From Swaminathania salitolerans (GTDB lineage: Bacteria > Pseudomonadota > Alphaproteobacteria > Acetobacterales > Acetobacteraceae), in contig NZ_BJVC01000001.1 in the NCBI RefSeq assembly GCF_007988945.1, forward strand, positions 124,001-188,000: a DNA stretch of 64,000 nt. Reading direction: 5' to 3'. A program made the translations under genes and the position numbers. Under the pieces are notes generated by a model that saw only the letters and a list, made by a program, of their open reading frames with translations, searched no databases and was not told the origin of the DNA. Shown in pieces: positions 7,737 through 46,373 of this stretch (the stretch's first letter is position 1; every line of letters starts with the position of its first letter).

Positions 7737-7768
7737 CTTAGGAGAACGCCTGGTGCAGGAAAACGCCC
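7723..7768. repeat. imperfect tandem copies of a 13-bp unit at the flippase stop codon
   Basis: AGGAGAACGCCTG occurs at 7723 and 7740, and a degenerate copy AGGAAAACGCCC begins at 7757. The first copy contains the flippase stop codon, so the gene tail has been duplicated into the intergenic space. Confidence 0.8.
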
Positions 7769-7779
7769 GGCGCTTCCGG

Positions 7780-9258
7780 TCAGAGTTCGGCTCCGCCGGG
7801 ATCGAAGCCGAACGAGGCAAGAACGAGCCGGTCATCCTCGCAGTCGCGCAGAAGCGAAGGAAGCACGCAGAGCAGACCGAGCGCCGGATCGCGCAGATAG
7901 AATCCGTCGAGACAGGAATCCTTCAGGCGCACCCAGCACCATATCTCGCCATGCGGCCCCTCTACCGCGCCGATCCCTTCGCCGCTCCCCGCGCCCGGCT
8001 CGGGGCGGGCGGGGAGCGTGGCCCCGAATTGCGACGAGACGCGCTCGATGCGCCGGAGCGAATCCCGGATCTCGGCAAGCCGCAGGCTTTGCCTGGCCCA
8101 GCCGTCACCGGAGAGGTGCGATCCGGCGCGGCCGGGGACGTGGCGCATGTCGTCCTCACGCTGGCGCAGATCGAACGAGCGACCCGATGCGCGTCCGGCA
8201 AGTCCGCCGATGCAGTGATATTCGGCGCGCGAAGGGGAGAGGCGCCCGAGTCCCTCGAGCCTCTCGGCCATCCGGCCGTGCAGCCCCTCGAGAACGGGCA
8301 GTCTCGGCATCATCGCATCGTGAAGATGCCGGGCGAGCGCGCGGATATCGAGCCCCGGTGCGATCCCTTCGGGCGTGAGGGAATCGGCAAGGCGCCGGTT
8401 GCCGCCATGATCGGCGCAGAGAGAAGCGCAGAGATCCTCGGCCAGAGCGGCATGGGTGGCGAGCAGCGGAAAGCCGGCGAGGCGGGCCATGAGGGCGATA
8501 TCGCGACAATGGACGACGATCCGCTCGACTTCGGACAGAAGGATCCGGGCATCGCGCATCTCTGCCGACGGGACGAGACCCAGGGCCTGTTCGATGGCGC
8601 GCGTATAGGCAAGCGGCCCCGCGACGAAGGCAGCCGCGTGCAGACGACCGAGCAGAGGCAGGGCCTCCTCCGGGCGGCGCCCCTGCAGATCCCGCAACAG
8701 GCCCCTGTGAGCGGCTCCGGGGATCAGGCGCTGCTTTCGCCAGGCGAGAGGCTGCATGTCGGTCTGGAGGGAGTCGACCAGAATCGGATCGGGTGGCGCA
8801 TGATCCGACTGGACGGAGCGTCGCGAGAGCGGCGAGATGCTCGCCCAGCCGCCACGATCGATGGCGGGCTCGGTATCGCTGGCGTTCAGAGGCAGGCTCC
8901 CCCAGAGATCCTGGGCGATACGTTCGGGCCAGGATGCCGGGGGGAGGGCGGCGGACAGGGCGAAATATCGTCCCTCGATCAGCGGCGTGCTGGCCAGAAG
9001 CGGCGTTTCCTGATCGAGGAACAGGGCATAGGCGCGCGTATCGTCGCACCAATGGGCGATGAACCAGCCGGGCGTCCGTGTCAGAAGCGTGCGCCATTGC
9101 GCTTCGTCCAGCGCGAAATGGAACGGTGTCAGGGCCTCTCCCTGACGGATGAAACCGGTCATGCCCTGACATGCCCCCCCGGGCGATCGGGATTCCGAGC
9201 GGGTCTCTCCGTCATGGCCGGGTCTTGCCGGATCGATGCGTGCAGGAGTCGACGTCAT
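7780..9258 (-). CDS. HyfG/HycE-like large subunit of an Ehr-type complex, nickel ligands absent
   Basis: This 492-residue protein has the NuoC-NuoD-like two-domain layout of group 4 hydrogenase large subunits. The NuoC-like part shows LPPASWPERIAQDLWG. The NuoD-like part shows HRGLLRDLQGRRPEEALPLL, then LAYTRAIEQALG, a helix with SEVERIVVHCRDIALMARL and the conserved GGLAGRASG-DLR. In true [NiFe] enzymes CxxC precedes the AYTRAIEQ helix; here the site reads HAAA (207-210). The C-terminal DPCxxC is replaced by a terminal DPGGAEL (486-492). The protein therefore cannot bind the NiFe centre. It starts in an ATGA overlap with the upstream gene and is the last of five coupled genes. An alternative start at MTGFIRQG lies 33 codons in. 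Confidence 0.75.
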   Translation of the reverse strand: MTSTPARIDPARPGHDGETRSESRSPGGACQGMTGFIRQGEALTPFHFALDEAQWRTLLTRTPGWFIAHWCDDTRAYALFLDQETPLLASTPLIEGRYFALSAALPPASWPERIAQDLWGSLPLNASDTEPAIDRGGWASISPLSRRSVQSDHAPPDPILVDSLQTDMQPLAWRKQRLIPGAAHRGLLRDLQGRRPEEALPLLGRLHAAAFVAGPLAYTRAIEQALGLVPSAEMRDARILLSEVERIVVHCRDIALMARLAGFPLLATHAALAEDLCASLCADHGGNRRLADSLTPEGIAPGLDIRALARHLHDAMMPRLPVLEGLHGRMAERLEGLGRLSPSRAEYHCIGGLAGRASGRSFDLRQREDDMRHVPGRAGSHLSGDGWARQSLRLAEIRDSLRRIERVSSQFGATLPARPEPGAGSGEGIGAVEGPHGEIWCWVRLKDSCLDGFYLRDPALGLLCVLPSLLRDCEDDRLVLASFGFDPGGAEL

Positions 9259-10367
9259 GGGGCCATCCAGATCAGGGGCCAGATGCGGGTCAGGAGGAAA
9301 GGGGCGGCGAGCCCGCCCGACAGCAGGAGAGCGAGGAGAACCCTCTCGCGCCGGTCGCGCGGGTCCGGACGATCGAAGCGCGCCCCCGCCGCCTGGATGC
9401 CGAGCGCCGTCAGACAGAGAATGACGGGCAGGGCACCCGACCGGAACAGTCCGACCGCAAGACCGCACATCGCGGCAAATCCCGGCCAGGGCGGCAGGCA
9501 GCAAGCGATCCATCTGCGCGTCGGTTCCGGCAGGCGCGGATCGGCCGAGAGTGCGAGGCCCGTTGTCAGAAAGAGCAGGGCAGGGACGAGACCGCCGGGG
9601 CAGGCAGCGGAAAGCGTGGCGAGTGCGACGGCCATCTGCGCGCCATCCTGCCGCGCGAGGACACAAAGCCATAGCCCGCCCAGACCGGCGAAAAGCAGGA
9701 CCAGATGGGTGATCTCGCGTTCGGGGAGGCGAAGCATGAGGGCGACGGCACCGATGCACAGAAGCATGTCCAGAACCGCCGCCCTTCTGTCCGCCGGATT
9801 GTCGGAGAGCCGCTGCGGCAGGATCGTGCCGGATCCGGCAAGAAGGCACAGGCCGATGGCCAGAAAGAGATCGCCCAGACGCAGGGTGGACGGGTCATGC
9901 ACGAGGCTGGTCAGGCTCGTCCCGAGAAGGGCCAGGATGAGCCCGAGGAGCCGGGCGCGCATCAGATCCCAGGCGAGACGGGCACGCGTCGTCACGAGCG
10001 TCTCGTGCAGGGCGAGAAGCATGGCGGCGCAGGCCGTCAGCGACATCACGATCAGGACGTCATGCGTGACGAGAGCCAGAAGCATGACCGAACAGGCGAG
10101 AAAGCAGAGCGACGAGGCGATGCGCCGCGCGTCTTCGCGCCAGGACATGAGCGGAATGACCGAAACCAGAAGACACGACCACCGGGTGAGCAGATCCGCT
10201 GCGGGCAGGAAGGGGATCAGGACACAGGACAGTATCGCGCCACCGACGGCAAAACGGCGTGCGGCCGGCGAGACCCGGTTCCCGGGCAGGAGGCTCATCA
10301 GGCAGGTCGCAAGGAGCGGCCATGTCGGAACCAGAAACTGCGCGATCTGACGGAGGGTTTCAGACAT
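9255..10367 (-). CDS. HyfF-like antiporter-type membrane subunit, short and lysine-free
   Basis: The 370-residue protein is almost entirely membrane-embedded (about 10-12 spans). Its place in the operon and overall pattern match HyfF, the second Mrp/NuoN-like antiporter subunit of hydrogenase-4 and Ehr complexes. It is clearly shorter than typical HyfF (about 500 residues). It contains no lysine at all, although the antiporter family uses conserved membrane lysines and a glutamate for proton transfer. The segment GGLVPALLFLTTG seems to take the place of the usual H-x-FKALLFLxAG. The start overlaps the preceding stop by 8 bp. Identity rests partly on synteny; divergence is high. Confidence 0.55.
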   Translation of the reverse strand: MSETLRQIAQFLVPTWPLLATCLMSLLPGNRVSPAARRFAVGGAILSCVLIPFLPAADLLTRWSCLLVSVIPLMSWREDARRIASSLCFLACSVMLLALVTHDVLIVMSLTACAAMLLALHETLVTTRARLAWDLMRARLLGLILALLGTSLTSLVHDPSTLRLGDLFLAIGLCLLAGSGTILPQRLSDNPADRRAAVLDMLLCIGAVALMLRLPEREITHLVLLFAGLGGLWLCVLARQDGAQMAVALATLSAACPGGLVPALLFLTTGLALSADPRLPEPTRRWIACCLPPWPGFAAMCGLAVGLFRSGALPVILCLTALGIQAAGARFDRPDPRDRRERVLLALLLSGGLAAPFLLTRIWPLIWMAP

Positions 10368-10914
10368 TGCCCGGGTCCTCCTGACGCAGCCAGGCGAGAC
10401 GCGGAATGAGCCATGAAGACAGCGCGATGAGCCCGAGCCAGACGAGCAGCGCAGCGAGAACCAGCGGCCAGCTCTGGCAATAGCCGCCAAGGAGCAGCAA
10501 TCCGTTCAGCATGCAGAGCAGCCCGACGAGCTGGAGCAAGGGGGCGGGGAGCGCAGCGGCACAGAGTCCGGCCAGAACCAGCCCGATGCAGATCAGAACC
10601 GGCAGGCCGGGGGTAGCGGCCAGCGCCGTGAGCAGGGTGAGCAGAATGGCCGCCGCGGTTGCGATGGTGGCTGCCTGCCGTATCCGGCGCCGCTCGCGCA
10701 GATCGCCGGATTGCCAGGAGGCATGACGTCCGAGCAGGATCCAGCCGATGCCGTTCAGAACCGGCAGAAGAACGAGAACGGCAAGGGCGGGCGGTCCGTG
10801 ACCGATCAGGGAGACCGAGGCCGCACCGCAGGTTCCGTGAAGCGGCAGGATCCGGGCGTCCCTGCCGATGGCCGCCAGGGCCACGAGAAGGGTCAGGCCG
10901 AGCAGAACGATCAT
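10360..10914 (-). CDS. HyfE-like membrane subunit
   Basis: The 184-residue protein has about six hydrophobic helices, like HyfE, which combines MnhC/NuoK-like features in hydrogenase-4 and Ehr complexes. It is a little shorter than E. coli HyfE and has no lysine. It is joined to its upstream neighbour by an ATGA overlap and to its downstream neighbour by an 8-bp overlap. The assignment relies on size, topology and its position between HyfC-like and HyfF-like genes, the canonical order. Confidence 0.55.
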   Translation of the reverse strand: MIVLLGLTLLVALAAIGRDARILPLHGTCGAASVSLIGHGPPALAVLVLLPVLNGIGWILLGRHASWQSGDLRERRRIRQAATIATAAAILLTLLTALAATPGLPVLICIGLVLAGLCAAALPAPLLQLVGLLCMLNGLLLLGGYCQSWPLVLAALLVWLGLIALSSWLIPRLAWLRQEDPGNV

Positions 10915-11819
10915 ACCCCGATCCTCCCGGCGAGGGTGAGCAGGATCGCCCCGCCTGCGAGGACGAGGGCAAGGCGGGTCGGAGGCAGAGGCCTGAGAAG
11001 ACGGGCCAGGGCGACGAATCCCGTCACGACCGCCAGCTTGACCGGCGCGACGAGAGACCAGAGCAGAAGATCGTGGCGCGTGGAGGTGTCTCCCACGGCG
11101 ATGGAACCGGGCCAGAGAAGATCGGCGATCATGAGGGTCCAGCCGCAGCGGAGGAGATCGTGATGGATCCGCAGGACGCTGCGATGGCGACCGGTCGTGC
11201 GGGCGATCAGGACCTCGTGCCACCGGTCGTCGAGAAAGAGTCCGTCGAGACTCAGGATGAGGGCGGCGGCGATGAAGACAAGTCCGCCCATCAGGGCCGG
11301 GGCGGGTTGCAGCTGGCGCTGCTGGAGAAGGCCGGTCAAGGTGCCCGCGCCGGGTAACCCTACCGCGATGAGCGTGCCGCTCAGGGTCAGGAGCGGAACG
11401 AGCAGCAGAAGGGTCCGCCCGCGTCGTGCGAGGCCATCGTGAAGCGTGCGCGTGAGGGCGCGTGTCGGCATTCCGGTCAGTGCGTGTATCCAGCAGGGCG
11501 CTGCGGCCGCAATGAGCATCACGCCGCAAAGCGCAGGCTCGGACAGGAAGCCGAACAGGGTATTGGCGCGTGCGAGCGGCAGGCCCGACAGGACAGGGAG
11601 GGTGAGACAGAAACCGAGCCATGCGACAGGGGGGAGCGGCCCGCCTTGTCGCCAACCGGCGCGTATCTGTCGCCAGCGCCATCCCGGCGGGGGGGCTTTT
11701 TCTCCCCCGAGCACGGCGGACGCGCCACGATCCAGATCCGTCAGGAAAGGCGCGAGGAGAGCGAGCAGGATCAGCTGCCCGATACTTGTCAGAAGCGACA
11801 GGACGAGGGGGGCGATCAT
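10911..11819 (-). CDS. HyfC/NuoH-like membrane subunit
   Basis: The 302-residue protein has about eight transmembrane segments and corresponds to HyfC/HycD, the NuoH-like anchor that links the catalytic arm to the membrane arm. The NuoH family loop rich in glutamates (EAEQEL-type) is not preserved; the equivalent region reads LSLDGLFLDDRWHEVLIART. The NRxGPG-type loop near the N-terminus is replaced by a DRGASAVLGGEK segment. It is embedded in the operon by ATGA overlaps on both sides. The assignment is from order and topology, with weak sequence support. Confidence 0.5.
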   Translation of the reverse strand: MIAPLVLSLLTSIGQLILLALLAPFLTDLDRGASAVLGGEKAPPPGWRWRQIRAGWRQGGPLPPVAWLGFCLTLPVLSGLPLARANTLFGFLSEPALCGVMLIAAAAPCWIHALTGMPTRALTRTLHDGLARRGRTLLLLVPLLTLSGTLIAVGLPGAGTLTGLLQQRQLQPAPALMGGLVFIAAALILSLDGLFLDDRWHEVLIARTTGRHRSVLRIHHDLLRCGWTLMIADLLWPGSIAVGDTSTRHDLLLWSLVAPVKLAVVTGFVALARLLRPLPPTRLALVLAGGAILLTLAGRIGV

Positions 11820-13387
11820 GACGTCCAGCCCAGCCAGGCCAGAGCCATGGCGAGGACGACGATCCAGAGGATCACGCCGGCTCTTGCGATGGTCTTGGCG
11901 AATGCGCGTGCCGTCGCGCCGCGATGGCCGAGAGCCACCGTCCCGGCATATCGTCGCCGGAGGAGCACGACGGGACGCCGCATCGCCCAGGGAAGGCGAA
12001 GGGCAGGAGAGGAGAGGCCGGACGATACGGGCCAGCGCGGAAAGGGCGGGAGCGATGCCGGAAGGGTGCCGAGGATCGCCGGAGCGAGGAGCGCAGGCAG
12101 CAGGAAGATCGCCGCCGGATACCAGAAGGTGCCATCTCCGCCCGCGATCGACCAGATCGGCCAGGAACGCCAGATATCCGGCCCGGCATCGCTGAGCCGC
12201 AGCAGCGCAGGATGAACGAGGCCGATCAGCAGGCCGGGACAGACAGAGAGGATCAGCCCGAGCGTGAGGGCGGATACCGATCCCGCTGCGTTTCGTCCGG
12301 CCTCGGCTCCCGTTCCGGCCCCGGCTCCCGCTCCGGCCCCGGCGGCCAGACGGTCCCAGCCGGTTTTCCAGCCGCGCAGCATGATGAGACCGATCGCAAG
12401 GCCGAGCATCATCCCGCCCGCCGTCCAGGCGGGAGAGAGCGAGCAGAGTCCGTTGACGACGTGCAGCCCCAGCCAGAGCGGCAGAAACCCGGCCAGAGGG
12501 GGAAGCGGAATGTGAAAGAGCAGGGACCATCCATGACGGCCCATTGCCTCGAGCGCGAGGGCGAGCACGAGGGCTTCGCCTCCTGCGAGTGCCGTGTCGG
12601 GCAGGCCGCCCGCTCTTGCCGCCAGCGTAAGACCGAGAAGAAGAACGGGCCATGCCTGACGGGCGTATCGCGACGGCGCGAGCAGCGTAACGACCGTGCC
12701 GGATGCGATCAGGATCAGCGGCCAGGTCATGCCCTTCATGACGAGCAATGGGGGGACGAAAAGAGACCAGGCCAGGATCGGGAATTCGGACAGGGCCGGC
12801 AACATGGCCAGACCCGGCACGGCACCGAAACCGAGCAGGGAGGGTATCGATGGCAAAGCCACGGCTGCGCAACCGGCCGGGGCGAAAAGACCCAGACGCC
12901 AGCCGCCCGAATGCCCGTTATCCGGTCTCTGGCCATGCGGGTTCTGGCCATGCGGGTGTATGCCGTTCGGGCGGCTGCGCTGCCAGAAGGCGAGGCACAG
13001 GGTCATGCAGATGACGGCATAGGCCGTTTCATGACACAGAAGCCCGAGCCCTCCGAAAAGCTCAGTCGCCCCCGAAAGCTGCGGATGCCGCGAGAGCAGT
13101 CCGAAGGTCCAGATCAGGAACCAGCACGCGGTCAGAGCGTCGAACGCGAAGAGTCCTGCCGGTGTCCCGTCGGGCAGAAGACAGCCCCAGCAGGCCAGCA
13201 GGGCCTGAAGCGCCAGCAAACCGCTCCGTATCGCCCTGCCATGACGAAACGCCAGACGGGATGTCAGGCCGCGCAGCGTCAGGCAGACGAGTACGGGAAA
13301 AAGGGGCGAAGCGAGAAACAGGGAGCGATCCTGACGGCACGATTGCGGGTTTCCCTCGTCCTTAGCGCAGATTCGGCTGCCACCCAA
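11816..13387 (-). CDS. HyfB/NuoL-like membrane subunit, N-terminus uncertain
   Basis: The 523-residue protein is the first gene of the Ehr-like operon. It carries NuoL/HyfB hallmarks: FAFDALTACWFLI in the N-terminal third and IPLPPLAGFLPLWLGL, which corresponds to the GLPPLNGFxSEW loop. It is shorter than typical HyfB (about 650-670). The only common start codon near the N-terminus is a TTG with no clear ribosome site, so the true start is unsettled. Two in-frame short-repeat insertions give a PHGQ-type stretch near residues 150 and an AGAGAG stretch near 350. The product is predicted to be an inner-membrane proton-translocation arm subunit. Confidence 0.5.
   Translation of the reverse strand: MGGSRICAKDEGNPQSCRQDRSLFLASPLFPVLVCLTLRGLTSRLAFRHGRAIRSGLLALQALLACWGCLLPDGTPAGLFAFDALTACWFLIWTFGLLSRHPQLSGATELFGGLGLLCHETAYAVICMTLCLAFWQRSRPNGIHPHGQNPHGQRPDNGHSGGWRLGLFAPAGCAAVALPSIPSLLGFGAVPGLAMLPALSEFPILAWSLFVPPLLVMKGMTWPLILIASGTVVTLLAPSRYARQAWPVLLLGLTLAARAGGLPDTALAGGEALVLALALEAMGRHGWSLLFHIPLPPLAGFLPLWLGLHVVNGLCSLSPAWTAGGMMLGLAIGLIMLRGWKTGWDRLAAGAGAGAGAGTGAEAGRNAAGSVSALTLGLILSVCPGLLIGLVHPALLRLSDAGPDIWRSWPIWSIAGGDGTFWYPAAIFLLPALLAPAILGTLPASLPPFPRWPVSSGLSSPALRLPWAMRRPVVLLRRRYAGTVALGHRGATARAFAKTIARAGVILWIVVLAMALAWLGWTS
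12305..12340. repeat. two 18-bp tandem copies inside the HyfB-like gene
   Basis: GGCTCCCG(T/C)TCCGGCCCC occurs twice in tandem with one mismatch, and a decayed third copy precedes it. In the reverse-strand gene it encodes an Ala-Gly repeat in a loop between membrane spans. Confidence 0.75.
12928..12957. repeat. two perfect 15-bp tandem copies inside the HyfB-like gene
   Basis: TCTGGCCATGCGGGT is repeated exactly. Being 15 bp long it keeps frame and encodes NPHGQ-type repeats in a hydrophilic loop. Confidence 0.85.
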
Positions 13388-13445
13388 TCGCGGGGCTCGC
13401 CGATTTCCCCCCTACTGCGCTCTCCTCGTACTCTCCCCTGTGCAC

Positions 13446-13477
13446 GCGCGCCCCTGTTCACACGCGCCCCTGTTCAC
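13446..13477. repeat. two 16-bp tandem copies upstream of the Ehr-like operon
   Basis: Two near-identical 16-bp units (GCGCGCCCCTGTTCAC and ACGCGCCCCTGTTCAC) lie between the aldo-keto reductase and the HyfB-like gene. No promoter is obvious in the 154-bp gap. Confidence 0.8.
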
Positions 13478-13541
13478 GCGCGTTCGCCACCTTCCTGTCT
13501 CGCGCCTTGCGGGCACGCGCGGGATTGGCGACGGATCCGCC

Positions 13542-14393
13542 TCAGATCATCGCGAGCGGCGTCTTGTGGCGCGGCGGGCCGAAACGCGCATCGAGCCGGT
13601 CGCGATCCCCGGAGGTTAGAACGATATCCAGCGCGGCCCTGTTTTCCCTGAAGTGGCGCAGCGACCCTGCCTTGGGAATGGAGAGGACATTGCTGCGGCT
13701 TATCGTCCAGGCGAGAGCGATCTGGGCCGGCGTGGCGGGGCCGGACGCCGTTTCATGGTCTCGCGCGATTTCTGCAAGGACGGGATCGTGAAGCAGATCG
13801 CCTCCCTGGCCCAGCGGCGAATAGGCAATCGTCACGATATCGTTCTCCCGATCCCGTGCCAGAAGGTCGAATTCCGCGCCGCGTTCTTCCAGATTATAGA
13901 GAATCTGATTGGCCGCGCATGTCTCCGCTCCTGCGATCGCGTCCAGCTCCTCCATATCCTCCGTATCGAAATTCGAGACGCCCCACTGGCGGATCAGCCC
14001 GTCCTGTTGCAGCGCGATCAGCGTATCGACCGTCTCTTCGAGAGGAACGCTGCCGCGCCAGTGCAGCAGATACAGATCCAGCCGGTCGGTACCCAGCCGA
14101 CGGAGGGAGTCCTGACAGCTCTGTCGTGTGCCGCTTCGGCTGGCATGGGAAGGCAATACCTTGCTGATGAGAAAAACCTCGTCCCGGCGCCCGGCGATCG
14201 CCTCACCCACGAGCTGTTCGGAACGGCCACTGCCATACATCTCTGCCGTATCGATCACGCTCAGACCGGAATCGAGACCGGCTCTGAGGCTTGCCACCTC
14301 ATCCGCACGATTCGCCTTCGAGTCCCCGAGATTCCAGCTTCCCATACCCAGCGCCGGAACGCTGACCCCATTGCGAAACGTGACCGTTTTCAT
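13542..14393 (-). CDS. aldo/keto reductase
   Basis: This 283-residue cytosolic NADPH-dependent oxidoreductase has the AKR TIM barrel. The catalytic tetrad is visible: Asp and Tyr in VIDTAEMYGSG, Lys in LISKVLPS and His in LDLYLLHWRGS. The C-terminal cofactor motif SIPKAGSLRHFRENR is present. The start is MKTVTFRNG, with AGGAG 7 nt upstream; a longer start 20 codons earlier lacks a ribosome site. The substrate cannot be told from sequence. It is on the same strand as the Ehr-like operon, 154 bp upstream, and divergent from the cupin gene. Confidence 0.9.
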   Translation of the reverse strand: MKTVTFRNGVSVPALGMGSWNLGDSKANRADEVASLRAGLDSGLSVIDTAEMYGSGRSEQLVGEAIAGRRDEVFLISKVLPSHASRSGTRQSCQDSLRRLGTDRLDLYLLHWRGSVPLEETVDTLIALQQDGLIRQWGVSNFDTEDMEELDAIAGAETCAANQILYNLEERGAEFDLLARDRENDIVTIAYSPLGQGGDLLHDPVLAEIARDHETASGPATPAQIALAWTISRSNVLSIPKAGSLRHFRENRAALDIVLTSGDRDRLDARFGPPRHKTPLAMI

Positions 14394-14534
14394 GAAGATC
14401 TCCTCTGACTGTGAAGAGCAGAGCGTTTCGCAACCGGGCACGTTCGTCTTCACGACCGATTAACCGGGCAGCCAGATCATCACGAAAATGCGAGGATAAC
14501 GCGTTCCTGACCGATCGGACGTTATCGTGCCCAT

Positions 14535-14576
14535 GCCGGATCGCAGTCGGGCCGGATCGCAACCGGGCCGGATCGG
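14535..14576. repeat. tandem 16-bp repeat in the AKR-cupin intergenic region
   Basis: Unit GCCGGATCGCAGTCGG at 14535, a two-mismatch copy at 14551 and a partial third copy at 14567. It lies 70-110 bp before the cupin start in the divergent gap. Confidence 0.8.
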
Positions 14577-14643
14577 GGCTGCGGAGGCGTTCCGGCTTCG
14601 GTCTTCGTCATTCGAAGAGGGTCATCCGAAGGGGAGAGCGACC

Positions 14644-15573
14644 ATGAAAGCTCTGGATCGTCGGTTTTTCAGCTTCTTTCGCGGGGGCGCCGTGGCGCGT
14701 GCGGAGCGCGCGCCGTCTCTCCCGATCGAAGCCTGTGCCATAGGGCTCTCAGGCAGGACCATCCGGATCGGGGCCGAATGTCACATCGTTCATCGCGCGC
14801 TCGGCGCCCGGCACGAGCCCTCATCCTGCCACGCGACCGGTTGGGGGGTCGTGCTCGCCGGTGAGGCCCAGCTGATCCTGAGCGGCGAAGGACCGGAGCC
14901 CGCCCGGCTTCTGCGCCTCCGCGAGGGCGATGCCTGGAGCATTCCCTCCCGCATGACGGGACGCATCGCCTGTCTCGGATCGCAACGGGTGCGCTTTCTC
15001 GCTCTCGTGAGGGCAGGCGCTGGCATAAGGACGAGCGCTGACATCGGGACGAGCGCGGGCGATTCCGATGCGGGGGTGCCTTCACACCGCCGGGAAGGAG
15101 ATGATGGCCCGCAGGAGCGCGGCTATTGTCACAGGAAAGACGCCCAGCCCGCCCGGCAGACGGACTGGGGCACTCTGCGCGTGATCGAAGGGGATCGTTT
15201 CCACGATCCCGACGCGCCCTCCGCAGCCCTCGTCGCGTTGCATCCCGGATGCAGCACCGGGCTGCACTGGCATCTCAATACCGCGACCTGGCATATCTGT
15301 CTCGAGGGCTGCGCCGCGCTCACCTGTCTCGACGATGGGGGCCGGTCACGCGAGACCGGATTCGTGCCGGGGACCGTCCTTCGAACGCCCCGCGCCCGGG
15401 GATATTCCATGCGCAATACGGGCCGCCATCCTCTTCTTGCGCTCGAGATCTTCCAGTCGGATCATTATCACGATCTGTCATTGCCCGAATGGCTCGCCTG
15501 TTGCCCCGCCGAGGAGATCGCCGCCTATCTGCGCGTCGATCTGCCGACATTGCGGCACTTCGCCCAGCTGTAA
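14644..15573 (+). CDS. oxalate-decarboxylase-like bicupin with lost metal ligands
   Basis: The 309-residue protein has two cupin domains. The second clearly follows OxdC: ALHPGCSTGLHWHLNTATW, then RNTGRHPLLALEIFQSDHYH and LSLPEWLACCPAEEIAAYL. OxdC binds Mn with HxH, Glu and a later His. In domain 2 the HWH is kept, but the Glu is Thr (HWHLNTATW against HWHPNADEW) and the second-motif His is Tyr (RGYSMRNTG). Domain 1 has lost the HxH pattern. A low-complexity linker with GTSAG and RTSAD repeats joins the domains. GGGGAGAG precedes the ATG. It is probably not an active decarboxylase; a binding or regulatory role is a guess. Confidence 0.7.
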   Translation: MKALDRRFFSFFRGGAVARAERAPSLPIEACAIGLSGRTIRIGAECHIVHRALGARHEPSSCHATGWGVVLAGEAQLILSGEGPEPARLLRLREGDAWSIPSRMTGRIACLGSQRVRFLALVRAGAGIRTSADIGTSAGDSDAGVPSHRREGDDGPQERGYCHRKDAQPARQTDWGTLRVIEGDRFHDPDAPSAALVALHPGCSTGLHWHLNTATWHICLEGCAALTCLDDGGRSRETGFVPGTVLRTPRARGYSMRNTGRHPLLALEIFQSDHYHDLSLPEWLACCPAEEIAAYLRVDLPTLRHFAQL

Positions 15574-15586
15574 CCTCCGGGAAGAG

Positions 15587-15622
15587 GGACGGAGCCCCAA
15601 AAGACCCGGGCTTCTCCCGTCC
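15587..15622 (+). terminator. interrupted hairpin after the cupin gene
   Basis: GGACGG-AGCCC pairs with GGGCT-(tctc bulge)-CCGTCC around a 10-nt loop, starting 14 bp after the stop. It is followed by an A-run rather than a T-run, so termination would have to be factor-assisted. Confidence 0.4.
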
Positions 15623-15799
15623 GGAAAAAAAGACCGCAGATCCATCCGCTCCTGGACTCGGCGGGTTGCGTTCGTCCGGTCGGCACGGCCAGATAGCATC
15701 CACCCTCTTCGCCGTAGCCCATCCCGCAGGAATGAACTCGCTCAGGCGATATCGTTCATGTGCGGCGAAACGCTCCGCTTTCCACGTTCCGGGACCCGC

Positions 15800-17170
15800 A
15801 TGATCAGCCTGTTCGACCTCTTCAAGATCGGTATCGGTCCGTCTTCGTCCCATACTGTCGGGCCGATGCGGGCCGCACAGCGTTTCGCCTCGTCCCTGCC
15901 TGCCGACGGTTCGATCCATCGCGCAAGGGTCACTTTGTACGGTTCGCTGGCCTGGACGGCAGAGGGACATGCGACCGACAAGGCCGTCATTCTCGGTCTG
16001 TGCGGGGCGCTTCCCGCGACGATCGATCCGGATGAGGCGGAGGCCATTCTGTCGGAGGTTCACCGGACCGGTTTCGTGCGTTGCGACGCGTGGCATCTGG
16101 CATTCGACCCCGAATGCGATCTCGTTCTGGATCGGGAGACTTCGCCTCCGGTTCATCCCAACACATTGCAGTTCGAGGCTCTGTCATCCGACGGGCAATG
16201 TCTGGCGCTCTCGCGCTTCTGCTCGGTGGGCGGAGGGTTCATCGTGCCCGAATCCGCTACCGAGAGCACGGGATACACCCTGCCATCGGTGCCTCATCCG
16301 TTTGCCAGCGGGGCGGAGCTTCTTGCACGGTCGGACGCACAGCAATGCAGCATCGCCCGGATCGTCATGGAAAACGAGATGGCGCTTCGACCCGCTTCGG
16401 AAATCGAAGCCTATCTCGACGGGATCGTCGATGCGATGATGCGCTGTATCGCGCGCGGCATGACCCGTCGGGGCCATCTGCCCGGACGGCTCAGGGTGCG
16501 TCGCCGCGCGGCTGCCCTGCACGAGAAGCTTCTGGAACGCGAGCGGACGAACAGTCGCTCGGCTCATGGCATCATGGACTGGATCAGCCTGTTTGCGATT
16601 GCGGTCAATGAGGAGAATGCTGCCGGGGGGAGGGTCGTCACGGCGCCGACCAATGGCGCAGCCGGGATCATTCCTGCGGTCCTGCGCTATTATCGCGAGT
16701 ATTGTGCGCCGCTTTCTCCTGCGACGATCCGTCAGGGCACGCATGACTTCCTGCTTACCGCAGCGGCCATCGGAGGGCTTTTCAAGCTCAATGCCTCGAT
16801 TTCCGGCGCCGAGGTCGGATGCCAGGGGGAGGTCGGCGTCGCCTCCTCCATGGCGGCGGCCGGTCTGGCCGCAGCGCTGGGCGGCACCCCGGCCCAGATC
16901 GAGGATGCGGCCGAGATCGGGATGGAGCATCATCTCGGTCTGACCTGCGACCCGGTGGCTGGTCTTGTGCAGGTGCCCTGTATCGAACGCAATGCATTCG
17001 GAGCGATCAAGGCCATCAATGCGGCGTCTCTCGCCCTTCACGGCGATGGCGAGCATCTCGTCTCGCTCGATCAGGTCATCAGGACGATGGCGGAAACCGG
17101 ACGCGACATGAATCACCGTTACAAGGAGACATCGCTCGGCGGGCTTGCGGTCAATCTGCCTGAATGCTGA
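15800..17170 (+). CDS. sdaA: L-serine ammonia-lyase, iron-sulfur type
   Basis: This single-chain [4Fe-4S] serine dehydratase converts L-serine to pyruvate and ammonia. The 456-residue length matches E. coli SdaA. The N-terminal beta domain begins [23 protein letters not shown], the family signature. The three cluster cysteines are at 341 (VGCQGE), 383 (LTCDPV) and 394 (VPCIERN), equal in spacing to E. coli 343/385/396. The catalytic-domain motif [14 protein letters not shown] is present. The frame is open far upstream, but the signature places the start here. A 226-bp gap separates it from the cupin, so it probably has its own promoter. Confidence 0.95.
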
Positions 17171-17270: not shown

Positions 17271-17296
17271 CCCGGCCTCTTGTGCCGGGTTTATTT
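17271..17296 (+). terminator. intrinsic terminator between sdaA and holC
   Basis: The stem CCCGGC/GCCGGG with a 7-nt loop is followed directly by TTTATTT. It serves sdaA and overlaps the stop of the convergent holC. Confidence 0.6.
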
Positions 17297-17737
17297 CGCC
17301 CTGCGCCAGCCTTGCGCCTGCTGCTGCCAGTAGGCGAGCTCATGCCCCTCCTCCCTTGCGCGGCTCCAGAGCGCGCGGGCACGTGTGAGGGCGGCCTCAT
17401 CCTGCCCGTCGAACAGGACGAATACGCGCGCGAAGCGCGCGAGATCGTGGTCGGGCGCCGCATCGGTCAGAAACAGGAAACGCGCCTCATTCGGAACGTC
17501 GTCGCTTTCGGTCAGCCAGATGGGCTGCCGGGCAGCATGACCCTGGCTGCGGCTCCCGTGAGGGAGCCAGAGCGGAGATTTCGCCTTCCACAGGGCGTCG
17601 TCGAGCTGCTTGACCGTAGCGAGGTCGCGGCAGCGTATGACGGCGCGTTCTCCGCTTTCGAGCGTGCGGCCGAGAAGGGGAGGAAGCGCCTCCCCCGGCG
17701 CCGAACGCGTCAGATGATAGAAGCCGATCTCCGCCAT
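17291..17737 (-). CDS. holC: DNA polymerase III chi subunit
   Basis: HolC links the clamp-loader psi subunit to single-strand binding protein at the replication fork. The 148-residue protein starts MAEIGFYHLTRSAPGEALP, the typical family opening, and has WLPHGSRSQGHAARQPIWLT and VFVLFDGQDEAALTRARALW, conserved HolC blocks. It lies 5 bp after pepA on the same strand, the pepA-holC order common in proteobacteria, so they are one transcript. Confidence 0.92.
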   Translation of the reverse strand: MAEIGFYHLTRSAPGEALPPLLGRTLESGERAVIRCRDLATVKQLDDALWKAKSPLWLPHGSRSQGHAARQPIWLTESDDVPNEARFLFLTDAAPDHDLARFARVFVLFDGQDEAALTRARALWSRAREEGHELAYWQQQAQGWRRAK

Positions 17738-17742
17738 GCAGG

Positions 17743-19233
17743 TCAGGTCGTCCGGCTTTCATGACGCCGCACGAGACTGTCGAGAAGACGCACGCCGAAC
17801 CCGGTCGCACCCTTGGGGCATTGCGGTGCGGCATCTCCACGCCAGGCCATGCCGGCAATATCGAGATGCGCCCAGGCGGTATCTCCGACAAAGCGGGCGA
17901 GGAACTGCGCGGCGGTGATGGCGCTTCCCGGACGGCCGGTGATGTTCTTCATGTCCGCGATATCCGAACGCAGCTGACGATCGTAGGCCTTGCCCATGGG
18001 CATCCGCCAGACAGCCTCTCCGGTTTCCTCTCCCGACTGGAAGAGGGCTCCGGCAAGGGCGTCGTCATTGCTGAACAATCCTGCCCGCACATGACCCAGG
18101 CTGACCACGATCGCGCCGGTCAATGTGGCGAGATCGACCATCAGCTTCGGCTGGAAGCGCTCCCGCGCATAGGCGAGGACATCCGCGAGGACGAGGCGGC
18201 CTTCCGCATCCGTGTTGAGAACCTCGATCGTTTTACCGGCATAGCTGCGCACCACGTCTCCCGGGCGCTGCGCATTGCCCGACAGCATGTTCTCGACCAG
18301 GCCGACCACACCGATCACATGAGCTTTCGCCTTGCGGCGCGCAACGGCCTCGAGGGCACCCACGACCGCGGCCGCGCCGCCCATATCGGTTTTCATCTCA
18401 TCCATGCCCGCAGCAGGCTTGATGGAGATGCCACCCGAGTCGAAGGTGACGCCCTTGCCGATGAAGGCAAGGGGGGCCTCTTCCGAGCCGCGATATCGCA
18501 TGATGGCCACCCGGGCTTCCTGCACGCTGCCCTGGGCAACCCCGAGAAGCGCTCCGAAACCGAGGCTGCGCAGGGTCGAAGCGTCGAGAATCTCGACTTC
18601 CACGCCAAGATCCCGGAGCGTCTCGATCCGGCGTGCGAATTCAGGCGGGGTCAGGACATTGGGCGGTTCGCTGACGAGGTCGCGCGCGCGGAAGATACCG
18701 GCAGCGACGGCCTTCAGGCTGTCCCAGTCGCGCTGCACGGCATCGGGGGCGAGCACGCCGAGATTCAGACGCTGCAGCCGGGGAGGAGAGTCCGGATCGG
18801 GCGTGCGATACCGGTCGAACTCATAGCGGCCAAGCACGGCGCCGAGTGCGCCATGAGCGGCAAACCCGCCGCATTTTCCGACGAAGGCCATATCGGCATG
18901 GGTGGCCCCGCGCAGCGCCTTGACGGCCTGGCCGCCGGCTGCCTCGATGGCTGGACCATCGAGGTCTTCATCGGCGCCGCAGCCGATCAGGACGATTCGG
19001 GCCAGAGCCGCACAGGGGGCGAGCAGAACGCAGCTCTGATCGCGTTGCCCCTTGTATCGCGAGATGGCAACAGCCCGGCGCAACGCGCCTCCCGTTACGG
19101 CATCGAGCCGGGAGAAGGGGCCGTTTGCGACGTCGAAATCCGGACCGGTCAGGAGAACGAGAGTCTGTTCCGATTCCGGAGCGCCCGTTCCCTGCAATAT
19201 GGGGAACTGGGCCTGGATCTGGATGTCGAGCAT
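17743..19233 (-). CDS. pepA: leucyl aminopeptidase (M17 family)
   Basis: PepA is a hexameric, two-metal cytosolic aminopeptidase. The 496-residue product has the N-terminal macro-like domain and the catalytic signatures GKGVTFDSGGISIKPAAGMD, KTDMGGAAAVVGAL and NTDAEGRLVLADVLAYA, which contains the M17 PROSITE motif. The start MLDIQIQAQF gives the usual family length; an ATG 8 codons earlier is possible and ribosome sites are weak for both. The gene is the first of pepA-holC and is divergent from a sulfite exporter-type permease. The intervening gap of about 190 bp holds the promoters, with an AT-rich core near 19325-19375. Confidence 0.95.
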   Translation of the reverse strand: MLDIQIQAQFPILQGTGAPESEQTLVLLTGPDFDVANGPFSRLDAVTGGALRRAVAISRYKGQRDQSCVLLAPCAALARIVLIGCGADEDLDGPAIEAAGGQAVKALRGATHADMAFVGKCGGFAAHGALGAVLGRYEFDRYRTPDPDSPPRLQRLNLGVLAPDAVQRDWDSLKAVAAGIFRARDLVSEPPNVLTPPEFARRIETLRDLGVEVEILDASTLRSLGFGALLGVAQGSVQEARVAIMRYRGSEEAPLAFIGKGVTFDSGGISIKPAAGMDEMKTDMGGAAAVVGALEAVARRKAKAHVIGVVGLVENMLSGNAQRPGDVVRSYAGKTIEVLNTDAEGRLVLADVLAYARERFQPKLMVDLATLTGAIVVSLGHVRAGLFSNDDALAGALFQSGEETGEAVWRMPMGKAYDRQLRSDIADMKNITGRPGSAITAAQFLARFVGDTAWAHLDIAGMAWRGDAAPQCPKGATGFGVRLLDSLVRRHESRTT

Positions 19234-19420
19234 GGTGAGTCCGGTTTTTATGGGCATGGTGTCGGCATATTGGCCGCTGGCAGATGTGGCGGCAAGGCAC
19301 GGCATGGCATAGCACGCTCTCGGAGCGTTATTAATTCAAACAACTATCATCGTTGATTGTAGTCGGGTTTTATGGCCTAGTCCTTTTCCGTGTCGTTCAC
19401 ACCTCCGTTTAGGCCATCCC

Positions 19421-35258: not shown

Positions 35259-35900
35259 ATGACTTGGACTCTTACCTCCGCCGTCGGCGAACCCCGTCTG
35301 CAATCCCCTGAAGATCTTCTGGCGCACGAGGACGTGCGCCGTAACCTCGTTGTGGGCAAGCTTCAGGACTTTATCTCCTGGGGGCAGAAGAACTCGGTCT
35401 GGCCGTTCAATTTCGGCCTGTCCTGCTGTTACGTGGAAATGGCGACGGCCTTCACCAGCCGCTACGATATCGCGCGTTTCGGTTCCGAAGTGCTGCGCGC
35501 CACCCCGCGTGAAGCCGATCTGATTGTGATTGCGGGTACCGTGTTCCGCAAGATGGCCCCGATCGTGAAGTATCTCTACGACCAGATGCTGGAGCCGCGC
35601 TGGGTTATCTCGATGGGCTCCTGCGCCAATTCGGGGGGCATGTACGATATCTACAGCGTCGTGCAGGGCGTCGACAGCTTCCTTCCGGTCGATGTGTATG
35701 TGCCGGGCTGTCCGCCGCGCCCGGATGCCCTGCTCGAAGGGCTGATGCTGCTGCAGGATTCCATCGGCAAGCAGCGCCGTCCGCTCAGCTGGATGGTAGG
35801 CGATCAGGGTGTGACCAAAGTCACGCCGCCCAGCATGCGCGACCTCAAGCGTGAAGAGCGCATGGCGGTCACCAAGCTGCGCACGCCCGACACGATCTGA
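35259..35900 (+). CDS. nuoB: NADH-quinone oxidoreductase subunit B
   Basis: NuoB holds the terminal [4Fe-4S] cluster N2 that reduces quinone. The 213-residue protein has the cluster cysteines 56 and 57 (SCCYVEM), 122 (GSCANSGG) and 151 ([14 protein letters not shown]). Length and the C-terminal extension resemble the E. coli subunit rather than the shorter mitochondrial-type one. Confidence 0.97.
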
Positions 35901-35913
35901 GGAGCCTGCAGCA

Positions 35914-37692
35914 ATGAGCGAAGTTTTCGACAACAGCCGGGCAGCAGGCGCGGGCACAGGTAGCATGGGGGCGGCAGTGGCCGCTTTCCCGCCGCACATG
36001 CTCATGATGGAGGAGGCCACGCGTGATGGCGTGCCGACCTTCTGGGTGTCGCGCGGCCAGATCCGTGCCGTGCTCCAGGCCGTCAAGGCCGGTGGCGCAC
36101 TGCGTATGCTGCTCGACCTGACCTGTGTGGACGAACGCCAGCGCATCCATCGCGACGGTCTTCCGGCTTCCGATTTCACCGTCATCTACCACATCCAGTC
36201 CTTCGACGGGCCGATCGACGAGGTGCGTTTCAAGGTGCCTCTGGCGGCCGATGACGCGAATATCGCCTCGATTACCGATATCTGGCCCAACTCGAACTGG
36301 CTCGAACGCGAAGCCTGGGATCTGTTCGGTGTCGTCTTCGAGGGGCACCCGCATCTCTCGCGCATCCTGACGCCGCCCACCTGGGTCGGGCATCCGCTGC
36401 GCAAGGATCATTATGCCCGCGCGACCGAGCGCCCGCCCTACACCCTCTCCGAGGATCAGGTCTTCGACGAGCAGGAAGCGCTGAGATTCGACCCCGAATC
36501 CTGGGGCATGAAGCGCCATTCCGACAACAGCGACTTCATGTTCCTCAATCTGGGTCCGAACCATCCTTCGGTCCACGGCGTGTTCCGCGTCGTGCTCCAG
36601 CTGGAAGGTGAGTTCATCGTCGATGCGGTGCCCGATATCGGATTCCATCATCGCGGCGCCGAGAAAATGGCCGAGCGCCAGACCTGGCACAGCTACATCC
36701 CCTATACCGACCGCATCGACTATGTCGGCGGGGTGATGAACAACTTCCCCTATGTGATGGGTGTCGAGAAGCTGGCGGGCATCACCGTGCCGCCGCGCGC
36801 GCAGCTCATCCGCATCATGCTGGCCGAGTTCTTCCGTATTTCCAGCCATCTCGTGTTCTACGGAACCATGGTGCAGGATCTGGGTCAGCTCTCGCCGGTC
36901 TTCTACATCTTCACCGATCGCGAGCGCGTTTTCGAGATCATCGAAAAGATCTGCGGTTTCCGCATGCATCCGGCCTTCTTCCGCATCGGCGGCGTGGCGA
37001 TGGATCTGCCGGAGGGCTGGGATGGCGAGGTTCGCGCTTTCCTCGACTATCTGCCCAAGCGTCTGGACGAGTACAACGAACTCGTCATGAAGAACCCGAT
37101 CTTCAAGGCCCGTACCAAGGGCGTTGGCGTCTACAATACCGAAGAAGCCATCGACTGGGGTGTTACGGGGCCGGGGCTGCGCGCCACGGGTCTGGAATGG
37201 GATTACCGCCGCAAGGCGCCCTATTCGGGTTATGACCAGATCGATTTCGATATTCCGACCGCCGTCAACGGCGATTGCTATGACCGCGCTGCGGTGCATA
37301 TCGAAGAGATCCGCCAGAGCCTTCGCATCATCCGCTACTGCCTCGATAACATGCCGGGCGGGCCCTACAAGGCCGAGCATCCGCTGGCTGTCCCGCCGCC
37401 GAAGCCGCGCACGATGCATGACATCGAAACGCTCATCCATCACTTCGTGGGCGTCAGCTGGGGGCCGGTCATTCCGCAGGGCGAGGTGCGCTCCTGCATC
37501 GAGGCGACCAAGGGCCTGAACCAGTATTACCTCGTGAGCGATGGCGGCTCGATGTCCTACCGGACGCGTATCCGCACACCGTCGTTCATTCATCTGCAAC
37601 AGCTTCCGATGCTGTCACGCGGCACCATGATTGCCGATCTGATCGCCATCATCGGAAGCATCGATTTTGTGATGGCCGATGTCGACCGCTGA
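35914..37692 (+). CDS. nuoCD: NADH-quinone oxidoreductase subunit C/D (fused)
   Basis: One 592-residue polypeptide combines the 30-kDa (NuoC) and 49-kDa (NuoD) subunits. The C part ends with [20 protein letters not shown] and RILTPPTW; the D part starts with [20 protein letters not shown], followed by [14 protein letters not shown] and [14 protein letters not shown]-like quinone-site residues. Fusion is usual in gammaproteobacteria, while most alphaproteobacteria keep nuoC and nuoD separate. Start MSEVFDNS has GGAG upstream. The 3' end overlaps nuoE by 14 bp. Confidence 0.97.
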
Positions 37693-44218: not shown

Positions 44219-44530
44219 ATGAATGCTGCCGATCCCAATGGCGCGCTCATCGTCGCCGTCATTCTCTTTTCGCTCGGTGCGCTCGGCGTGCTCGTGCGTC
44301 GCAACCTGCTGTTCATGCTGATGTCGACGGAAGTCATGCTGAATGCGGCCTGCCTGGCCTTCATTGCGGCAGGCAATCGCTGGCATCTCGCCGACGGTCA
44401 GGTCATGTTCATCATGATCGTCGCGTTCGCGGCTGCGGAATCCGCCGTGGGTCTTGCCATCATCCTGCGTATGCATGCCGCCGGACGTGCCACGCTTGAC
44501 GCCGATACCGGCAATCGTCTGGGGGGTTAG
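44219..44530 (+). CDS. nuoK: NADH-quinone oxidoreductase subunit K
   Basis: NuoK is a three-helix proton-channel subunit. The 103-residue protein has the channel glutamates in [14 protein letters not shown] and [15 protein letters not shown]. This length is normal for the family. Confidence 0.95.
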
Positions 44531-44534
44531 TCTC

Positions 44535-46373
44535 GTGGCTACGCTGCTTCCACTTGTCATCGCCTGTCCCCTTTTCGTCTCCATCATCCTGATGCTGACG
44601 GGGGGCAAGCTTCCCGCCCGTGCCACCACACTGCTCGTCGGTGCGGGTATGGGTCTTTGCGCCCTCTTCGCCGTCATTTCGGCCTATAGCTTCCTGACCG
44701 GTCCCGATTCGCTCGGCGCGCTGCATGTCGTGCTGTGGAACTGGATGCAGGTCGGCAATTTCACGGCCCAGATCGCACTCAGCCTCGATCGCCTCTCTCT
44801 GGTGATGATGCTGGTCGTTTCCTGCGTGGGCTTCCTGATCCTGGTCTATGCCTGCGCCTATATGTATGACGACCCGGACATCGCGCGCTTCTTTGCCTAC
44901 ATGACCCTGTTCGTCGCCTCCATGCTCCTGCTGGTTCTGGCGTCGGATCTGCTTGCGGTCTTCGTCGGCTGGGAAGGCGTCGGTCTGTGCTCTTACCTGC
45001 TTATCGGTTTCTGGTATGGCGAGCAGGCCAATGCCGTCGCGGCACGCAAGGCCTTCGTGGTTACGCGCGTCGGCGATGCGCTCTTCCTGCTCGGCATGCT
45101 CCTGATGGCCACGGCCGTGGGATCGCTCGATATTCCGACCCTGCTCGCAGTCGGGCCGCATGCGCCTTCCACAACCCTGACCCTGGGCATGTTCCTTCTG
45201 CTTGGCGGCGCCATGGCAAAATCGGCACAGGTGCCTCTCCAGACCTGGCTGCCTGACGCCATGGCGGGTCCGACACCGGTTTCGGCCCTCATCCACGCGG
45301 CCACCATGGTCACGGCGGGCGTCTATCTGCTGGCGCGCCTGCACGGCCTGTTCGTGCTGACGCCTGCCGCGATGCTCGCCTGCGCCGTCGTCGGTTTCGT
45401 CACCATCCTCCTCGCTGCGGGAAGCGCCCTGGTCCAGACCGATATCAAGCGTATCCTGGCCTATTCCACCATGAGTCAGCTCGGATACATGTATCTGGCG
45501 CTCGGATGCGGCGCGTGGCACGCCGCCATGTTCCACCTCGTGACCCATGCGTTCTTCAAGGCACTGCTCTTCATGGCGGCGGGTTCGATCATCCTGCGCG
45601 TCCATCACGAGCAGGACATCTTCAAGATGGGTGGTCTGCGCAAGGACATGCCCTGGGTCTTCACGGCGTTCCTGATCGGCTCGGCCGCTCTTGCGGGTCT
45701 TCCGCTGATCACGGCGGGCTATTTCTCCAAGGAACTCATTCTTGGCAGCGCCTATGAGGTGAGCCCGATCTTCTGGGCGGGTGCCCTGTTCGGTGCGTTC
45801 CTGACCTCGATCTATATCTTCCGCTGCGTCTTCATCGTGTTCTGGGGCGGTCATCGCACCCATGCGCATGGCCGCTCCGGCATGGCCATGGCATTGCCCA
45901 TGGCCATTCTCTCGGTGCTGGCCATCGCGGGAGGTTGGATGGAGATGCCGGATGCGATCGCCAATGTGCACATCTTCTCCAACCTGCTTTCTCCCGTTCT
46001 CGGGGCACTGCCCCAGGAACACGGGACCAGTCTGCTGATCGTCGGTTCTCTCGTTCCGATCGCAGGTGTCACCATCGCCTGGACGCTCTGGCGTCCGCGC
46101 GACGTGGCACCGACTCCGGCCGAGAGCCCCGCAATCGCCACCCTGCGTGCGGATTGGGGTTTCGATACGCTGTATGACCGGATCTTCGTGCGGCCGTTCA
46201 TGGTGCTCGCTCATCTGAACCGTCGTGATTTCATCGATCGTTTCTATGATCTGATCGCCGCCCTGACCCAGGGCAGCGGCCAGGCCATCGCCCGTCTGCA
46301 GAGCGGCCAGGTGCGTCGCTATGCCGGCTGGATTGCGGCAGGAACGGTTGCAGCTCTTTGTCTGGCGGTATGA
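44535..46373 (+). CDS. nuoL: NADH-quinone oxidoreductase subunit L
   Basis: NuoL is the distal antiporter-like proton pump with the long lateral helix. The 612-residue protein has FVGWEGVGLCSYLLIGFWY (channel Glu), WLPDAMAGPTPVSALIHAAT, HLVTHAFFKALLFMAAGSII (channel Lys) and the C-terminal helix region. The GTG start, with a G-rich ribosome site 9 nt upstream, follows nuoK by 4 bp; earlier ATGs would lie in nuoK. The stop overlaps nuoM. Confidence 0.95.
   Translation: MATLLPLVIACPLFVSIILMLTGGKLPARATTLLVGAGMGLCALFAVISAYSFLTGPDSLGALHVVLWNWMQVGNFTAQIALSLDRLSLVMMLVVSCVGFLILVYACAYMYDDPDIARFFAYMTLFVASMLLLVLASDLLAVFVGWEGVGLCSYLLIGFWYGEQANAVAARKAFVVTRVGDALFLLGMLLMATAVGSLDIPTLLAVGPHAPSTTLTLGMFLLLGGAMAKSAQVPLQTWLPDAMAGPTPVSALIHAATMVTAGVYLLARLHGLFVLTPAAMLACAVVGFVTILLAAGSALVQTDIKRILAYSTMSQLGYMYLALGCGAWHAAMFHLVTHAFFKALLFMAAGSIILRVHHEQDIFKMGGLRKDMPWVFTAFLIGSAALAGLPLITAGYFSKELILGSAYEVSPIFWAGALFGAFLTSIYIFRCVFIVFWGGHRTHAHGRSGMAMALPMAILSVLAIAGGWMEMPDAIANVHIFSNLLSPVLGALPQEHGTSLLIVGSLVPIAGVTIAWTLWRPRDVAPTPAESPAIATLRADWGFDTLYDRIFVRPFMVLAHLNRRDFIDRFYDLIAALTQGSGQAIARLQSGQVRRYAGWIAAGTVAALCLAV

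Follow-up and report, generated by a model that had tools for sequence, protein, structure and literature searches.

A split Hyq-type gene set of Swaminathania salitolerans as a probable non-pumping iron-sulphur complex

What does a bacterium retain when it keeps a hydrogenase-like membrane complex from which the nickel ligands have gone? The question is raised by five overlapping reverse-strand genes in a 64,000-nucleotide stretch of the acetic acid bacterium Swaminathania salitolerans (RefSeq assembly GCF_007988945.1, contig NZ_BJVC01000001.1, positions 124,001 to 188,000; below, the window). An initial annotation, made from the sequence alone, had read them as hyfB, hyfC, hyfE, hyfF, and hyfG of a hydrogenase-4-like or energy-converting hydrogenase-related (Ehr) complex without nickel ligands. 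On a modest balance of probability, we regard them as encoding most of a conserved, non-pumping complex that retains a [4Fe-4S] centre and derives from Hyq, a complex of the Ehr or hydrogenase-4-like type known from Azorhizobium caulinodans. The five genes are the following.

11816..13387, reverse strand: hyfB, antiporter-like membrane subunit of the HycC/NuoL type, shortened, start uncertain (by predicted structure)
10911..11819, reverse strand: hyfC, NuoH-like membrane subunit, acidic E-channel signature lost (by a hidden Markov model, HMM, linking it to Escherichia coli HyfC, and a motif table)
10360..10914, reverse strand: hyfE, small membrane subunit (by iterated HMM and its position between hyfC and hyfF)
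9255..10367, reverse strand: hyfF, antiporter-like membrane subunit with a NuoM/NuoN fold, no lysine (by an AlphaFold2 model and VIA-align)
7780..9258, reverse strand: hyfG, fused NuoC/NuoD-like soluble subunit without nickel ligands and without the GPxH loop (by PF00346 and NCBIfam NuoD)

We confirmed the coordinates and order of the genes, which are joined by ATGA overlaps at hyfB/hyfC (11819-11816), hyfC/hyfE (10914-10911), and hyfF/hyfG (9258-9255) and by an 8-bp overlap at hyfE/hyfF (10367-10360). The true first codon of hyfB is uncertain, the candidates being TTG at 13387, the next TTG at 13219, and the first ATG at 13006. The uninterrupted frames had been taken as an argument for selection; their openness is weak evidence, because the antisense strand of this GC-rich DNA carries long frames too (865 amino acids at 7753-10350 and 575 amino acids at 11924-13651), and it is gene order and substitution ratios, given below, that reveal selection. 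The direct flanks consist of a flippase-like gene and an aldo/keto reductase gene, with no HyfI among them. There is no space for a ferredoxin gene among the five genes, a statement confined to the locus since no genome-wide ferredoxin search was made.

HyfG is the sole member of the five recognized by Pfam (PF00346, E 2.4e-7). Its second half matches NCBIfam NuoD (TIGR01962, E 9.1e-11), and its top solved structure by sequence is subunit 5 of the E. coli formate hydrogenlyase (FHL), so that the kinship with NuoD and HyfG on which the initial annotation depended is borne out. Searches of Pfam and NCBIfam gave no credible family for HyfB, HyfC, HyfE, or HyfF, and iterated HMMs were therefore used to place them, supplemented by predicted structure in the case of HyfF and HyfB. 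HMMs seeded with the window proteins connect stepwise to the matching genes in remoter Acetobacteraceae, and an HMM from clade and outgroup rows finds E. coli HyfC at 80 bits. The iterated HMM for HyfE finds the outgroup HyfE but not E. coli HyfE; the HMM links and the position of the gene suggest its identity. An HMM built from E. coli HyfB or HyfF plus the Acetobacteraceae locus L096 failed to detect the window proteins. The AlphaFold2 model of HyfF (pLDDT 92.3, pTM 0.92; 38-row alignment) was matched by VIA-align to an NDH-1 chain with Z 32.2 over 355 residues, near full length, and the 50 best entries (Z 29.4-32.2) were chains of the NuoM, NuoN, and NuoL types. For HyfB (pLDDT 80.9; 29-row alignment, modelled from 13276), the top VIA-align match was HycC of the E. 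coli FHL (7z0t_C, Z 23.4 over 364 residues), clearer than the weak Foldseek match, in which HycC also came first (best E 0.014). The models thus suggest that an antiporter-like fold is retained in HyfF (Z 32) and HyfB (Z 23). The window also contains the organism's own complex I, which served as a reference for comparisons: nuoB at 35424-35750 and nuoD at 36877-37689 by Pfam, and nuoL, nuoM, and nuoN, named by reading, within 44454-49314.

Relatives of HyfG were found in 45 genomes besides its own among 397 of Acetobacteraceae (36-72% identity, E 2.5e-69 or better), and scanning of named genomes assigns them to Asaia, Gluconobacter (including G. oxydans), Bombella, Saccharibacter, Brytella, Acidomonas, and Tanticharoenia. 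The five genes stand in identical order in all 30 clade loci (the window and L062-L090). Ten further Acetobacteraceae loci are intact in the membrane subunits and the HyfG loop. Outside the family, HyfG of the Hyq kind occurs in 20 genomes at 22 places among 241 alphaproteobacterial genomes; 16 places were read, and all six Hyq genes lie together in 14 of these, the contig ending before hyfB in L226 and a HyfI match lacking in L228. A few loci deviate. The hyfB, hyfE, and hyfF frames are short or broken in L065 (genome G338 of the Asaia group, 85% complete), and hyfG lies in two pieces at G318:C35:71265-72642 and G297:C34:129012-130390, which could be assembly errors or true decay. In L155 (G012, a one-contig genome of 2.7 Mb), hyfC, hyfG, and hyfI were recognized, and hyfB and hyfF were undetected by the HMMs used.

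The initial annotation reported that no HyfI gene is present, which is correct for the locus but not for the genome. There are two genes of the NuoB type (PF01058): the complex I copy and one on contig 6, outside the window, at G000:C6:166996-167478 (L104:6997-7479; minus strand, 160 amino acids). The product of the latter has the CxxC, C, and GCPP elements intact, i.e., all four Fe-S cysteines, and CxxC, C, and GCP are found in 30/30 aligned HyfI rows, its own included. The Hyq set of six genes (B, C, E, F, G, and I) is thus complete, with five in the window and hyfI on another contig. The stop of this hyfI and the start of an nrtR-type gene (NrtR_WHD) overlap; nadA, nadB, and nadC come next (block L104:2262-7479), and the opposite flank has cysQ and sua5. 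The hyfI-nrtR-nadABC block recurs in three Asaia-group genomes (L157-L159) and in L160 and L162, and in L070 and Brytella (L071) hyfG and hyfI, with a single inverted gene between them, are followed by nrtR. These blocks and this side-by-side arrangement show that one ancestral operon was cut between hyfG and hyfI. In remoter relatives, hyfI directly follows hyfG; the six-gene set is contiguous in Gluconobacter and others; and cysQ and/or sua5 stand ahead of pepA-holC-hyfB in L091, L094, and L101. In several genera, the position of hyfI next to nrtR-nadABC may point to a connection with NAD metabolism.

A HyfI-type gene was detected in all 45 clade genomes, within about 5 kb of hyfG in 33 and elsewhere in 12; six of the distant genes were read together with their flanks, and a profile match is the sole basis for the other six. 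No other NuoB-type gene was found in 28 of the 45, and in every one of these 28 the HyfI-type gene lies beside hyfG, within about 4.5 kb.

We then compared HyfG with its relatives. As the initial annotation stated, the nickel ligands are lost: both nickel motifs of window HyfG are devoid of cysteine. The nickel-binding CxxC pair occurs in 0/60 Acetobacteraceae HyfG rows, L097 and L100 each having a single cysteine at one nickel place; orthologues combining a CxxC large subunit with HyfI, named earlier as a possible refutation, were therefore found with respect to HyfI only. The GPxH loop, which carries a quinone-site histidine in complex I, is present in the genome's own NuoD, in 16/16 rows from outside the family, and in 10/10 intact Acetobacteraceae rows, and in 0/42 window-clade rows; the Asaia group has a deletion at this place. 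Eight intermediate rows, judged by eye, also lack it at the loop place (0/8), the pattern matches in two of them (L097 and L142) sitting further on. The motifs HxG and GGxxxRxxxRxxDxR, part of the face that NuoD turns toward the Fe-S cluster, are kept across 18 rows. The three Hyq cysteines (C258, C491, and C497 in A. caulinodans) occur in 15, 15, and 14 of the 16 outside rows and in 8, 7, and 6 of the 10 intact Acetobacteraceae rows (none of the three in L096 and L140), and at the aligned places of 0/42 window-clade rows. Six otherwise intact Hyq loci (L096, L140, L151, L153, L223, and L227) have already lost at least one of them, and these cysteines may have been lost before the pump residues.

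Losses were also observed in the membrane subunits, in alignments for which E. coli Hyf and the organism's own NuoL, NuoM, and NuoN served as anchors. The HyfB table was made without L141, L142, L149, L154, and L155 and the HyfF table without L138, L141, L142, and L155, in which the gene is cut off or unidentified. In HyfB, the TM5 Glu, TM7 Lys, TM8 Lys, and TM12 Glu are present in 10/10 intact Acetobacteraceae rows and 0/45 others. In HyfF, the TM7 Lys (10/10 versus 0/46), the TM12 Glu (10/10 versus 2/46, L097 and L154), and the TM5 Glu (10/10 versus 1/46, L149) follow the same pattern, the three exceptional rows belonging to the intermediate group. Outside the family, HyfB is intact in 15/15 rows and HyfF in 16/16. 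Proton-path residues are gone in all window-clade rows with readable HyfB and HyfF (41 of 42), and the window proteins lack the antiporter-subunit signature of TM5 E, TM7 K, TM8 K/N, and TM12 E/K. Window HyfF has no lysine at all and no Glu in its helix interiors. Besides, the acidic E-channel signature of HyfC is absent from the window clade and present in intact rows, and the ENG motif of HyfE is gone among the HyfE rows listed. Median counts of D/E/K per 100 hydrophobic-core positions fall from 4.32 in intact rows to 2.58 in the acetic acid clade for HyfB and from 3.57 to 1.54 for HyfF, counts that part the groups only loosely, with overlapping ranges. The proteins are also shorter: about 490-520 amino acids versus about 670 for intact HyfB, and 370 versus about 480 for intact HyfF. 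It is this stripping, of the HyfG loop and the membrane ion-path residues, that the initial annotation overlooked.

The 42 rows with complete loss, the window included, form one side of a branch with support of 100/100. A tree with outside-family rows gives a ladder from intact through intermediate to fully lost, with the lost rows together (SH-aLRT 100); this tree left out 18 rows, namely E. coli, NuoD, the long-branch L082, L099, L100, and L155, and near copies. Seven of the intact Acetobacteraceae loci cluster with families other than their own, so that some intact copies may stem from transfer. The lost clade shares neighbours (pepA, holC, aldo/keto reductase, pssA, psd, and gloB) across many genera, which argues for vertical descent; none of these adjoins the intact Acetobacteraceae loci, and one or two adjoin the intermediate L095, L097, and L154. 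The aldo/keto reductase gene lies upstream of hyfB in 21/30 clade loci including the window, and also in L092, L095, L098, L101, L137, L146, L148, and L155; pepA and holC are both upstream in 22/30, again including the window. The corresponding genes of the window are the following.

13542..14453, reverse strand: aldo/keto reductase gene (PF00248), upstream neighbour of hyfB, not claimed for the complex
17291..19305, reverse strand: what we take, by likeness and with no family search behind the names, to be holC and pepA, a remnant of the ancestral pepA-holC-AKR-hyf context, AKR being the aldo/keto reductase

Between holC and the aldo/keto reductase gene of the window lie genes for a cupin and a serine dehydratase (14527-17170).

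How, then, might such a complex work? Sequence comparison establishes the subunit set, the split, the kept HyfI cysteines, the losses in HyfG and the ion path, and purifying selection. The locus specifies five of six subunits of a derived Hyq complex, a rearrangement having left hyfI elsewhere on the chromosome. The six proteins probably still assemble as a membrane-anchored complex that does not pump ions. HyfI would carry a [4Fe-4S] cluster against the conserved HyfG surface (HxG and GGxxxRxxxRxxDxR), and this cluster may relay single electrons between partners or report redox state. We infer such a relay or sensor module because the Fe-S subunit is kept while the nickel site, the loop histidine, and the usual charged path are gone. 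The energy conversion of the ancestor would have been given up, with the iron-sulphur module and the membrane scaffold retained. Acetic acid bacteria have a loosely coupled respiration, which giving up energy conversion would fit. A fuller account, to which we give slightly less than even confidence, is that the substrate site and ion path were lost stepwise and that the complex was repurposed as a non-energy-converting membrane iron-sulphur module, kept even without complex I, its Fe-S subunit having joined the NAD-biosynthesis operon in some lineages.

Several observations weigh against this interpretation. The kept HyfI cysteines indicate a cluster site, not electron flow. The loss of the Hyq cysteines is not tied to the loss of the pump, because L096 and L140, with intact pumps, are also without them. 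The HyfB alignment is gappy around TM5-TM8 in the acetic-acid-bacterial clade, so that single columns are weak, especially in the shortest rows, and the TM9 His of HyfB, present in 10/10 intact rows, recurs in 1/45 others (Brytella L071, in a gappy stretch). The helices of window HyfF retain D134, D166, D200, H121, and seven Arg, which makes an alternative ion path possible. The structures of HyfF and HyfB are single-chain predictions. Finally, the detached hyfI of Acidomonas (L161) has no nad genes within the 12 kb read, and the substitution ratios given below are rough.

The main rival is a purely structural role, in which the complex is a relic kept solely as a scaffold that stabilizes another membrane complex. 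We consider this unlikely, though the best of the alternatives. The active-site and ion-path residues that were tested have been lost, yet the folds persist, and there is a precedent in the same family: the available portion of PMC10715153 describes a "deranged" bc1 complex and a COX1-like protein of Acetobacteraceae in which the cofactor ligands are lost and the proteins kept. On the other hand, HyfI cluster ligands invariant in 30/30 rows are unexpected if only shape matters, yet a cluster can itself be structural. In addition, complex I is not a possible partner in 28/45 genomes, because these have no second NuoB-type gene.

The stepwise loss along the tree might instead mark slow decay, with genes on their way out and without present function. 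In agreement with this, HyfB changes faster than HyfG (41-49% versus 65-72% identity to the Asaia group), the HyfG genes of G297 and G318 were each found in two pieces, and L065 has three short genes. However, seven pairs of relatives gave dN/dS (Nei-Gojobori) values of 0.06-0.24 for hyfB to hyfG, HyfB and HyfF included, and four pairs gave 0.04-0.14 for hyfI; the values are rough because dS exceeds 1 in several pairs, and all of them indicate purifying selection. Moreover, no internal stop was seen in the matches to HyfG from the 45 clade genomes, and genomes of 1.9-2.1 Mb, such as Bombella, still have the five genes and one of the HyfI type. Pseudogene decay was judged unlikely on the dN/dS evidence, and slow decay in general appears improbable.

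Somewhat less probable still is an energy-converting enzyme that remains active, its ion path and catalytic pocket having been rebuilt with other residues. The full-length antiporter fold of HyfF, the three Asp, one His, and seven Arg in its helices, and the selection on the genes would all suit such an enzyme, but the absence of lysine and of interior Glu from window HyfF would not, and the losses strike HyfB, HyfF, HyfC, and the HyfG loop together. The five-subunit redox-free machine, or one borrowing its Fe-S subunit from complex I, as the initial annotation proposed, accords with the lack of hyfI at the window locus but is very improbable, and is contradicted by this genome and its 45 relatives, because the genome's own HyfI on contig 6 has all four cysteines, so that the subunit set is not redox-free, and because the only NuoB-type gene in 28/45 genomes adjoins hyfG in 28/28 of them, on which ground the lending of NuoB by complex I was rejected.

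A non-pumping Hyq derivative would matter in several respects. Complex I research mutates pump residues singly to learn how redox chemistry and ion transport are coupled. Within one family, a natural series grades from intact Hyq to versions that have none of these residues, with the culturable Gluconobacter and Asaia among its members. Both the use of a group-4-like complex without pumping or nickel and the order in which coupling sites are lost become testable. Furthermore, hydrophobic genes unseen by Pfam gain an identity, and the "deranged" respiratory complexes of the family gain a further candidate.

Within the open-access literature, we found no description of the complex in acetic acid bacteria and, in a narrow search, no account of a Hyq or Ehr complex that has lost its pump residues; the main text of two open-access Gluconobacter oxydans knockout papers does not contain hydrogenase, formate hydrogenlyase, or hyf. 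The closest known system is the Hyq "endo-hydrogenase" of A. caulinodans, which the available part of PMC3357923 describes as six genes, hyqBCEFGI, with a HyqG that lacks both CxxC motifs and has three other conserved cysteines, a HyqI with four cluster ligands, and no ferredoxin subunit among those described. The lack of a ferredoxin subunit, for which the initial annotation had called the locus stripped, is thus no peculiarity of it. Indeed, the small subunit set is normal for the Hyq kind, because the outside clusters leave no space between their genes for hyfA, hyfD, or hyfH, their flanks not having been searched for ferredoxin genes. As far as that part of the source goes, the complex resembles Hyq in its six subunits, their order, the NuoC/NuoD-fused large subunit without CxxC, the HyqI-type cysteines, and the absence of HyfD; unlike Hyq, it has a relocated hyfI, has lost the HyqG cysteines, the GPxH loop, and the ion-path residues, and has shortened membrane subunits.

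Ehr complexes, as portrayed in the accessible portion of PMC6349859, are group-4-hydrogenase-like and suspected of coupling redox to charge translocation. They share with the present complex the lack of Ni/Fe ligands and the antiporter-like subunits, whereas the translocation residues are gone here. E. coli hydrogenase-4 (Hyf) and formate hydrogenlyase (Hyc) have homologous B, C, F, G, and I subunits, with E linked by position and outgroup only; unlike the locus here, E. coli has hyfA, hyfD, hyfH, and hyfJ, the nickel-binding CxxC, and intact ion paths. In contrast to the bc1 and COX1-like proteins mentioned above, which belong to other complexes, the small subunit here retains its Fe-S ligands, and the losses concern the substrate and ion-path sites. 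Thus, a six-gene Hyq complex without nickel ligands was already known, and what is new in the acetic acid bacteria is the decay of the HyfG loop and cysteines and of the ion path.

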